From NCBI RefSeq assembly GCF_018362995.1, contig NZ_CP074372.1, positions 2,356,001 through 2,420,000 of the forward strand: a stretch of 64,000 nt of DNA, given 5' to 3'. Source of the stretch: Chryseobacterium indologenes. Its GTDB lineage: Bacteria > Bacteroidota > Bacteroidia > Flavobacteriales > Weeksellaceae. How positions within the stretch are numbered: the stretch's first letter is position 1; the number at the start of each line of letters is the position of its first letter. Below the pieces are notes generated by a model that had not been told where the DNA came from, did no database searches, and was given only the letters and a program-made list of their open reading frames with translations. Made by a program: the position numbers and the translations under genes. Of this stretch, positions 9,746 through 47,073 are shown in pieces.

Positions 9746-9757
9746 TTTAAAAAATCA

Positions 9758-10078
9758 CGAGAAAATCTATAAGCCGGATTTTGTACTTCCGAAAAAGTGC
9801 CTGTTATTTATCTACGTGTTACATTGCTGCAACACTTGAGCTGATTACCCCTCGGTTTTCAGGACGAGCCGCCCCTATTTCCATTACTGAAAAGAACCGA
9901 TATACTTACCATTGCACCGCAAAGAGTTTACCTGGTTTCACTACAGCCGAACTGTACTTGCTTTCTGTTGCACTTGTCCTACCCTCACGGGTGACGGATG
10001 TTATCCGCTTTGCTGCTCTATGGTGTCCGGACTTTCCTACCTCCCGTAAAACGGGAAATCAACAGGCCGATTTTCTCG
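9758..10078 (-). ncRNA. rnpB: RNase P RNA, class A
   Basis: Read on the minus strand, the hallmark GGAAAGTCCGGACACC lies near the 5' end and the matching AAAATCCGGCTTATAG near the 3' end. The termini CGAGAAAATC and GATTTTCTCG pair perfectly over 10 bp as helix P1, which fixes the limits. The length of about 320 nt is slightly short for the class. The RNA is the catalytic part of RNase P, which matures tRNA 5' ends. An apparent plus-strand frame over this gene is a shadow. Confidence 0.95.
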
Positions 10079-35657: not shown

Positions 35658-35719
35658 GGATAGATTAGCTCAGTGGCAGAGCACCCGGGTTGACGCAGGT
35701 TCGAGCCCTGCATCTATCC
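35658..35719 (+). ncRNA. tRNA-like sequence lacking the anticodon arm
   Basis: It has an acceptor stem of 8 bp (GGATAGAT with ATCTATCC), a D-arm (GCTC...GAGC) and a complete T-arm (GCAGG, TTCGAGC, CCTGC), but between them only CCCGGGTTGAC instead of an anticodon arm and variable loop. It is 62 nt long. The D-arm and neighbouring CACCCGG are identical to those of the next tRNA, so it may have arisen by duplication and loss of the anticodon hairpin. It would not decode codons. Confidence 0.65.
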
Positions 35720-35724
35720 TGATA

Positions 35725-35786
35725 TCTGATATAGCTCAGTGGCAGAGCACCCGGCTCTTGGACCGGGAGGACACAGGTTCGAGCCC
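35725..35786 (+). tRNA. tRNA, anticodon loop of 8 bases; possibly Gln
   Basis: Acceptor TCTGATA/TATCAGA, D-arm GCTC/GAGC, anticodon stem CCCGG/CCGGG, variable loop AGGAC, T-arm ACAGG TTCGAGC CCTGT. The stems leave an 8-base anticodon loop CTCTTGGA rather than 7. Reading TTG gives Gln, supported by the weak U1-A72 pair typical of Gln tRNA; reading from the usual U33 gives CTT (Lys). The next base is C (position 73), unusual outside His. CCA follows as CCA at 35787-35789 only if no discriminator base is assumed. Identity is uncertain. Confidence 0.6.
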
Positions 35787-35893
35787 TGTTATCAGACCAA
35801 ATAATACAATAATGAACAGGAAATACGAATCTTTCTGTTCTAAGAAGCTAAATTTGTATAGCATAAGAAACATCCATTCTGTAATTTTAAATA

Positions 35894-45539: not shown

Positions 45540-45705
45540 AATTAGCTTCAAAAATCGCAAGTAAAATTGTTTTGAACCATTATTTTAAGCCATTAAGATA
45601 GATGGATGGTTAAGTTTTTTTTAAAACAAATCTTGTTATAACCCTGCAATACGTCTTAATGGTTTAAATATTGGATCCTCAGAAATTCTGTACATTTACA
45701 ACATC

Positions 45706-45804
45706 ATGAAACATTTAAACAGTATACTACGTCTTCCATTCTTCAGTGAATATTACGTTCCGAGCTATCGTTCGGGAAGAGTTTCTATATCTGTAATTCA
45801 ATAA
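45706..45804 (+). CDS. Leader peptide of tyrS, 32 residues with Tyr codons
   Basis: ATG at 45706, TAA at 45802-45804. It contains FFSEYYVPSY, with three Tyr codons (two adjacent, TAT TAC at 45751-45756, one at 45766-45768), and ends ahead of a strong terminator. It has a -7-like TACATTTA about 18 bp upstream. Tyrosine codons in a peptide before a tyrosyl-tRNA synthetase are what a ribosome-stalling attenuator needs. No other role is apparent. Confidence 0.6.
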   Translation: MKHLNSILRLPFFSEYYVPSYRSGRVSISVIQ

Positions 45805-45825
45805 AATAATCTAACGTATATATAG

Positions 45826-45860
45826 AGCCCGGACAGTACCTGTCCGGGCTTTTCATTTTT
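45826..45860 (+). terminator. Terminator in the tyrS leader (attenuator)
   Basis: AGCCCGGACA and TGTCCGGGCT form a perfect 10-bp stem around GTACC, followed by TTTTCATTTTT. The tyrS ATG follows only 14 bp after the T run (45874), too close for a separate promoter, so tyrS must be read through this terminator. The 5' arm CCCGGAC (45828-45834) can alternatively pair with GTTCGGG (45770-45776) inside the leader gene, which would be an antiterminator. Confidence 0.8.
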
Positions 45861-45873
45861 AAAACTATTCAAC

Positions 45874-47073
45874 ATGATTCATTTACTACAAGAAAATGTG
45901 GCTATCATCCTTCCTGAAAATGGTTTGGAAGAAAAACTTACACAAGCCGAAAAGGAAAACAGAAAACTATCTATCAAACTGGGATTTGACCCTACTGCGC
46001 CTGACCTGCATCTGGGACACGCGGTAGTACTGAAAAAACTGAAACAATTTCAGGATCTGGGACATCAGATCATTATCGTGGTAGGAAGCTTTACAGCGAG
46101 AATTGGTGATCCTACAGGAAAAAATAAAGCCCGAAAGCCTTTAAGTGCTGAAGATGTACAGCATAATGCCCAGACTTATATCAATCAGCTTTCCAAAGTA
46201 GTTGATGTTCAGAAGACAAAGATTGTTTTCAATTCTGACTGGCTGGATGCGCTTGACTTTTCAGAGGTTATCCAATTGCTGTCAAAAGTAACTGTTGCTC
46301 AACTGATGCACCGCAATGATTTTAATAAAAGATTTACAGAAAATACCCCTATTGCCATGCATGAACTTGTGTACCCCATTCTTCAGGGTTTTGATTCTGT
46401 AAAAATTGAGTGCGACATCGAAATGGGCGGCACAGATCAGCTTTTCAACTGTACGATGGGAAGGCAGCTTCAGGAGGTACATGGAATGCCTACACAGATT
46501 GTCATGTGTATGCCTCTGCTTAAGGGTCTTGACGGAAAGGAAAAAATGAGTAAGTCACTGAACAATATTATCGGGCTGACAGACGAGCCTAATGAAATGT
46601 TTGGAAAGACAATGTCTATTCCCGATGCATTAATTGAGGAATTTATTAACCTGACTACAGATTTCTCGGTGGAAGAAAAAAAGGATCTTGTTTCGAGAAT
46701 AACGGAAGGTGAAAATCCTATGAATATTAAAAAGCTCATTGCGAAAAATATCATCAGCCAATACCATGATCATGCTTCAGCAGAAAATGCGGAACAATTC
46801 TTTATCAATCAGTTTCAGAATAAAAATTTTGAAGAGAAGGTATATGAACCTGTTTCTATACATAATTTGAAGAGTATCCAAAACAAAGTATCTCTTGTGG
46901 AACTTTGCCATCAGCTTAAAAATGACCTCAGCAAATCGGCAGTCCGGAGGTTAATTGAAAATGGAGGCATTCAGGTCAATAACATCAAAATAACAGATGC
47001 TAATGAAGAAATGGAACTGATCCCTCAAACAAAGATAAAAATCGGGAGAAGAGGTTTTTTTGAGTTAATATGA
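45874..47073 (+). CDS. tyrS: Tyrosyl-tRNA synthetase (TyrZ-like type)
   Basis: A 399-residue class I synthetase. HIGH is HLGH (46-49 in GFDPTAPDLHLGHAVVLKKL), the KMSKS loop is EKMSKSLNN near 225, and the C-terminal S4 RNA-binding domain covers about 335-397. The N-terminal pattern (GFDPTAPDLHLGH, GDPTGKNKARKPL) is of the TyrZ/H. influenzae TyrS branch rather than the E. coli/B. subtilis TyrS branch, so it may be a second, accessory enzyme. It is controlled by the leader attenuator. Confidence 0.95.
   Translation: MIHLLQENVAIILPENGLEEKLTQAEKENRKLSIKLGFDPTAPDLHLGHAVVLKKLKQFQDLGHQIIIVVGSFTARIGDPTGKNKARKPLSAEDVQHNAQTYINQLSKVVDVQKTKIVFNSDWLDALDFSEVIQLLSKVTVAQLMHRNDFNKRFTENTPIAMHELVYPILQGFDSVKIECDIEMGGTDQLFNCTMGRQLQEVHGMPTQIVMCMPLLKGLDGKEKMSKSLNNIIGLTDEPNEMFGKTMSIPDALIEEFINLTTDFSVEEKKDLVSRITEGENPMNIKKLIAKNIISQYHDHASAENAEQFFINQFQNKNFEEKVYEPVSIHNLKSIQNKVSLVELCHQLKNDLSKSAVRRLIENGGIQVNNIKITDANEEMELIPQTKIKIGRRGFFELI

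Follow-up and report, generated by a model that had tools for sequence, protein, structure and literature searches.

The window (the whole stretch of 64,000 nucleotides of Chryseobacterium indologenes DNA that was analysed) carries a gene for a tyrosyl-tRNA synthetase (TyrRS), preceded by a short open reading frame and by sequences predicted to fold into alternative hairpins. The features of the locus, with the RNA elements numbered 1 to 4 in the manner of amino-acid attenuators, are the following:

45671..45698, + strand: Bacteroidota-type promoter, predicted from the sequence, with TTG at 45671-45673 and the -7 element TACATTTA at 45691-45698
45706..45804, + strand: leader peptide gene of 32 codons, MKHLNSILRLPFFSEYYVPSYRSGRVSISVIQ, recognised by its sequence and by in-frame selection
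45751..45756, + strand: sensor, the tandem Tyr codons 16-17 (TAT TAC)
45758..45777, + strand: predicted 1:2 hairpin hiding element 2, 45758-45765 with 45770-45777 (8 bp; folding, -10.1 kcal/mol)
45770..45834, + strand: antiterminator (2:3), core 45770-45776 with 45828-45834 and a predicted second helix 45783-45790 with 45820-45827 (folding, together -13.7 kcal/mol)
45824..45860, + strand: intrinsic terminator (3:4), stem 45824-45836/45840-45852, loop 45837-45839 and T-rich tail to 45860 (folding, -22.7 kcal/mol)
45874..47073, + strand: auxiliary tyrosyl-tRNA synthetase gene tyrS, 399 aa, KMSKS type, which in the S/Z naming of TyrRS types we take to be the TyrZ type (TIGR00234, 350 bits)

The 32-residue leader with three Tyr codons, two of them adjacent, that a first-pass annotation had pointed out was indeed present as described (Tyr codons at 45751-53, 45754-56 and 45766-68). 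In the window, 6 of 449 short ATG-started ORFs contained at least three Tyr including a Tyr-Tyr pair. A terminator-like site was found once between 45400 and 47300, a count that is uninformative because shuffled sequences averaged 1.1, and a complement to the terminator arm as long as that of the window arose in 300 of 5000 leader shuffles. From the window alone the case for an attenuator is thus only suggestive, and it was decided by conservation in relatives.

Two further RNA features were observed elsewhere in the window. At 35659-35798 lie two tandem tRNA-like genes. The first is only 61 nt long and seemingly devoid of a normal anticodon arm; for the second, ARAGORN gives a four-base 'anticodon', cttg, which in our reading means an anticodon loop of 8 nt. 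A bacterial RNase P class A RNA gene occupies 9754-10078 (- strand).

The regulated gene had been annotated simply as tyrS. Its product is a TyrRS with the signature GKEKMSKS, whose best sequence matches among solved structures were the TyrRSs 6bqy and 1h3e, but by sequence it is an auxiliary, KMSKS-type enzyme and not the housekeeping one. The latter is encoded separately in the same genome (G000:C1:4632838-4634127), is 28% identical, 431 aa long and of the KFGKS type (GSKFGKS), and has relatives in 78/78 genomes of the genus, in two pieces in 2 of them. In the window's own genome, no Tyr-rich short ORF was found before this second TyrRS gene.

A TyrRS search of genome contigs confirmed 191 relatives of the auxiliary enzyme, of which the best 80 were examined for a leader, sought upstream as a short ORF whose second residue is K and which contains part of the ILRLPFF motif. 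These 80 loci were mostly from Chryseobacterium, but also from Weeksella, Vaginella, Faecalibacter, Flavobacterium, Arenibacter, Gelidibacter and Oceanihabitans, with Telluribacter as a member from outside the order. The same leader and terminator, for which the first-pass annotation had proposed a search in relatives, preceded tyrS in 80/80 of these best loci with none dropped (the L020 leader starting with GTG). Together with the window, Tyr stood at codons 16 and 17 in 81/81 sequences, codon 16 being always TAT and codon 17 being TAT in 46 and TAC in 35. The third Tyr of the window, at codon 21, recurred in 45/81; since a ribosome stalled there would, by our estimate, cover element 2, this codon should not help.

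The association of leader and gene was surveyed further with a covariance model built from 32 of the 81 leaders, whose E-values are rough. In a sample of 395 Flavobacteriales genomes, including 42 members of the genus, the TyrRS was found at E<=1e-60 in 22, all in the window's genus, and the leader model matched these same 22/22 genomes at E<=7.9e-22, each match stopping 16-20 nt upstream of the gene; the best match among the 373 genomes without the gene was 4.5e-7. Likewise, 9/259 Flavobacterium genomes had the TyrRS and 9/9 of these had the leader, 8 at E<=4.9e-21 and the ninth (G1196) directly before the gene at 5.5e-8, a value close to the best gene-less matches (3.8e-7, 4.5e-7), the former being the best among the 250 Flavobacterium genomes without the gene. 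Not all survey positives are independent, as some genomes supplied model sequences (the L013 contig lies in G296). In a class-level sample, the gene was found at E<=1e-120 in only 1/395 genomes, the window's own.

The leader of G1196 (L158; G1196:C1:3896596-3896756) was the most diverged of all, having lost ILRLPFF while keeping Tyr-Tyr at codons 16-17 and the terminator. Several other matches were set aside. That in G443 (4.5e-7; L137, C29:44476-44607, - strand) is a different short ORF with a terminator; this Flavobacterium ORF reads MKTIKCHTNFYTMWISSARASME, and its TGCAAGGGC could pair with the 5' arm of the terminator that follows, so that it is perhaps another attenuator. The match in G1081 (3.8e-7) looks like chance. 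The one in G273 (8.1e-7; L138, C1:540369-540495, - strand) looks like the remnant of a Flavobacteriaceae-type leader, in a member of the genus that does not have this TyrRS; the 3' arm that would complete its terminator is missing, as though this genome had formerly carried both gene and switch. Weak matches at 2774863-2774928 of the window's genome and in G012 and G520 closely follow a gene read as rplL and correspond to an ordinary terminator. A degenerate pattern for other ILRLPFF leaders in the window's genome returned three sites, namely tyrS itself and two whose frames, measured from stop to stop (12 and 38 residues), are unlike leaders.

In a quick tree of 62 rows (the window, 34 of the 80 loci and 27 of 29 distant TyrRSs), the leader-bearing enzymes formed one side of a branch with SH-aLRT 100 and length 1.78. 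No leader resembling that of the window was found before the 29 distant TyrRS genes (42-47% identical), 3 of which had a short ORF with at least 3 Tyr (start codons being estimated). Within the leader-bearing enzymes, that of C. tagetis grouped with those of Flavobacteriaceae and relatives, at a fork with SH-aLRT 94, and its leader is of their type, which points to a transfer of gene and leader together. Across 18 listed loci, gene neighbours were common within close groups (several Chryseobacterium; two Flavobacterium) and differed between genera, and therefore gave no clue to function. Very probably, the switch has travelled with the spare gene through flavobacteria.

A sensor other than the ribosome might act on the same terminator, be it a T-box-like tRNA-binding RNA, a riboswitch or the TyrRS binding its own leader. 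Gram-positive TyrRS genes do use T-boxes (PMC3315439, in the part covered), but at the leader no Rfam match reached the gathering score, none of 16 sub-threshold matches was a T-box, and the conserved part proved to be in-frame coding sequence. Specifically, no T-box match was obtained at the gathering score in the window, nor at E up to 10 in 45640-45880, and leader families of Rfam stayed below their gathering scores (His_leader 23.8 of 49, trpB motif 23 of 59 and Thr_leader 15.5 of 55 bits). Searches of Rfam, Pfam and NCBIfam yielded no family that fits the leader. We therefore regard a sensor of this kind as highly improbable, and return to a ribosome reading the leader.

To judge from promoter-like motifs, the RNA probably begins no more than a few bases ahead of the leader ORF. 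In the window, the -7 element TACATTTA departs from the consensus TAnnTTTG at the last base, and transcription is predicted to start at about 45703, which would leave a 5' untranslated region of 3 nt. When the best motif within 30 nt upstream of the leader ATG was taken from each sequence, it matched TAnnTTTG in full in 49/81, against 1.0% of shuffles; a single mismatch, as in the window, occurred in 26/81 and is common by chance (22.8% of shuffles). The best such motif stood 2-9 nt upstream of the leader ATG in 79/81, and a TTG 15-26 nt upstream of the motif (about -33) was present in 51/81. With the published position of the -7 element, which places its G at -5 (PMC6847099, in the section covered), the leader would have a 5' untranslated region of about 0-5 nt in 78/81. 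No Shine-Dalgarno-like motif preceded the leader ATG in any of the 81. In Flavobacterium psychrophilum, only 5.5% of mRNAs are leaderless, according to the covered part of PMC9723704.

The leader is under marked selection at the amino-acid level over its first half only. Computed pairwise over related sequences and without a formal test, pN/pS was 0.11 for codons 2-13, 0.05 for codons 7-13 and 0 for codons 16-17 (78 distinct sequences), and rose to 0.89 for codons 18-25 (77 sequences); in the two other frames, codons 2-13 gave 1.21 and 2.26 versus 0.11 in frame. Leu8, Pro11 and Phe13 were present in 81/81 despite synonymous change. This pattern indicates that selection acts on the peptide as far as the sensor codons, and beyond them on the RNA.

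The conservation of the peptide as such, together with the promoter-like motif ahead of it, might in turn suggest an ordinary small protein gene closed by its own terminator, with tyrS transcribed from a separate promoter downstream. However, amino-acid selection ends after codon 17 while the later RNA elements are still conserved, and the leader accompanies this tyrS in every sampled genome that has the gene. Moreover, the gap of 14-37 nt that separates the terminator stem from tyrS contained no TAnnTTTG motif better than 6/8 in any of the 81 sequences, in agreement with the earlier view that no separate promoter fits there. A small protein gene is therefore a very improbable account of the locus, and we continue with the attenuator.

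The selection on the N-terminal peptide exceeds the needs of a plain attenuator. Leaders such as trpL are not known for comparable peptide conservation, so that the nascent chain may help at the pause. In its strongest form this becomes an arrest peptide, MKxLNxILRLPFF, stalling the ribosome at Tyr-Tyr upon an exit-tunnel ligand (an inhibitor or a tyrosine analogue) and then acting through the same antiterminator, with tRNA shortage as a secondary cue. The selection at the amino-acid level on codons 2-13, which leaves synonymous change free and ends at Tyr-Tyr, is what such a peptide would leave, but the invariable Tyr-Tyr (81/81) ahead of a TyrRS gene is a cognate match that tRNA sensing explains, and the G1196 leader has kept this pair without ILRLPFF, while L157 has ILHLTFF. 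We thus consider arrest by a ligand unlikely. A hybrid of attenuator and arrest peptide can be put forward tentatively: the first 15 residues encoded by a near-leaderless mRNA may act in the exit tunnel and make the ribosome hypersensitive at the two Tyr codons. A mobile spare TyrRS would thereby be switched on as a rescue enzyme, perhaps when natural inhibitors hit the housekeeping one. The G1196 leader speaks against nascent-chain help being indispensable.

Turning to the RNA beyond the sensor, a terminator was found in 81/81 sequences (80 loci and the window). In the window it is stronger than the 10-bp stem initially noted, with 13 pairs and a 3-nt loop, and in an alignment of 32 leaders it forms in 98.6% of cells, with changes on both sides in 6/11 pairs. 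Its 5' arm has a complement of 6-9 bp upstream in 81/81; the pairing of 45828-45834 with 45770-45776, already proposed for the window, was confirmed at 7 bp with one G-U. The best complement lies 17-21 nt downstream of the first Tyr codon in 72/81, and the distance from codon 16 to the start of the TCGG core of element 2 is 20 nt in 2 sequences, 21 nt in 62 and 23 nt in 17. The remaining 9/81 have a longer or stronger complement closer to the first Tyr codon, 8-9 nt downstream of it, which counts against the model. At the usual toeprint distance, a ribosome whose A site holds codon 16 or 17 would end a few nucleotides short of element 2. An antiterminator strand sharing the 5' arm of the terminator was hence found just ahead of where a ribosome stalled at the sensor codons would stand, with weaker support for the rest of the predicted helix.

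Covariation was examined in the 32 aligned sequences. The key column pair of the 2:3 helix was U-A in 21 and C-G in 11 with 0 broken, a compensatory change in a column that also covaries in 3:4. The helix was unpaired at column 66 in 18/32 and at column 73 in 12/32, and two of five measures of 2:3 covariation were not above shuffles. The covariation of the core is mostly one clade-level change. Among 19 divergent sequences, the duplex of element 2 with its own element 3 averaged -16.8 versus -14.1 for swapped partners (0/10000 permutations); within the 12 leaders not of the Chryseobacterium type, 304/10000 swaps matched the own pairing. The core helix was supported by the consensus folds of both groups. 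It had 6 bp plus 3 in a set of 16 made up of Flavobacteriaceae-type and other leaders, and 7 bp in 24 chosen Chryseobacterium-type leaders, in whose fold no pair had two-sided changes. The outer antiterminator helix was absent from the latter consensus fold, though present in the window's own fold.

The antiterminator of the window had been flagged as weaker than the terminator. It is larger than was claimed, given the predicted second helix, and still weaker (-13.7 against -22.7 kcal/mol; z -1.7 versus shuffles). Over the 81 sequences, mean energies were -20.2 for the terminator and -14.1 for the antiterminator, and antiterminator z-scores against shuffles ranged from 0.1 to -2.8 in 13 sequences, L065 being no better than shuffled. 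As the terminator is the more stable, capture of its 5' arm must be kinetic. A 1:2 hairpin is predicted in the window, as first annotated with 45757-45763 as the partner of element 2, but is best drawn with 45758-45765 and 45770-45777; the core of element 2 is paired upstream in the predicted fold of only 62/81 leaders and the hairpin is absent in 19/81, with the 8 listed leaders lacking it coming from Flavobacteriaceae, Vaginella, Faecalibacter and Telluribacter. Another concern, that the leader stop lies after element 2, is eased by the finding that the 5' arm of the terminator stays free in 81/81 when a ribosome at the stop codon is assumed to cover 15 nt.

Taken together, we propose with a probability of roughly 0.87 that transcription of the spare TyrRS gene is controlled here by ribosome-mediated attenuation and is induced by scarcity of charged tRNA-Tyr. 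This upholds the original suggestion of tyrosine-codon attenuation, with Tyr-Tyr, a terminator and a 6-9 bp complement in 81/81 sequences and one compensatory change. RNA polymerase would initiate just upstream of the leader ATG, and a ribosome would read the leader almost from the 5' end of the RNA. With ample Tyr-tRNA(Tyr), this ribosome would move past codons 16-17 to the stop codon, covering sequence near the predicted outer antiterminator strand and leaving the terminator arm free, so that the terminator forms. If too little charged tRNA-Tyr is available, because tyrosine is scarce or because the housekeeping TyrRS is inhibited or saturated, the ribosome would wait at codon 16 or 17, with its front edge just short of element 2 and with element 1, where present, covered. 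Element 2 could then pair with the 5' arm of the terminator before the 3' arm is made, and tyrS would be transcribed. The nascent chain, with its conserved MKxLNxILRLPFF, may modulate this pause of the ribosome. In leaders without a 1:2 hairpin, the ribosome at the stop codon presumably masks the outer antiterminator strand, so that the terminator would win.

If so, the locus provides the Bacteroidota with a well-supported candidate sensor of tRNA charging for a TyrRS gene, as well as an example of a spare synthetase moving together with its own starvation switch. The selection that ends at the sensor codons offers a testable case for attenuator leader peptides acting via the nascent chain, and a near-leaderless sensor ORF would suit a phylum that does without Shine-Dalgarno sequences.

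TyrRS genes under T-box control are known from Bacillus subtilis (tyrZ). Enterococcus durans tyrS is another (PMC3315439, in the part covered). The proposed switch shares with these genes induction by uncharged tRNA-Tyr through antitermination, but a T-box RNA binds the tRNA directly, whereas here a ribosome would read Tyr codons. Within the phylum, leader-peptide attenuation has been proposed for amino-acid biosynthesis operons of F. psychrophilum, where conserved 5' elements before pheA, hisG and alaS, among others, and structured 5' untranslated regions of aminoacyl-tRNA synthetases have also been described (PMC9723704, in part), and leader-like sORFs occur in 5' untranslated regions of Bacteroides thetaiotaomicron (PMC7366714, in part). 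The locus resembles the cases in these portions of the two papers in placing a leader peptide ahead of a structural gene. The earlier statement that attenuation of a synthetase gene by a leader peptide was not known to be described in flavobacteria thus needs narrowing in view of those biosynthesis operons, and holds for tyrS insofar as this gene is not named in the main text of PMC9723704, nor in the covered parts of PMC7366714. A tyrS leader peptide in Bacteroidota was not found in the literature searched, though Lopatovskaya et al. 2010 (Mol Biol 44:128) may hold one.

The candidate switch also has counterparts among synthetase genes under ribosome-mediated attenuation. Escherichia coli pheST is such a gene, controlled by the leader peptide PheM with cognate codons and alternative hairpins, and the locus is like it in these respects; unlike the window's gene, pheST encodes a housekeeping enzyme, and its leader has Phe codons and a ribosome-binding site. 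The closest parallel in logic is the attenuator of the auxiliary TrpRS of Streptomyces, likewise a spare synthetase gene under ribosome-mediated attenuation. Our locus differs from it in having no known inhibitor, in using tyrosine and not tryptophan, in belonging to the Bacteroidota, in probably having nearly no 5' untranslated region, and in its conserved 17-residue N-terminus.
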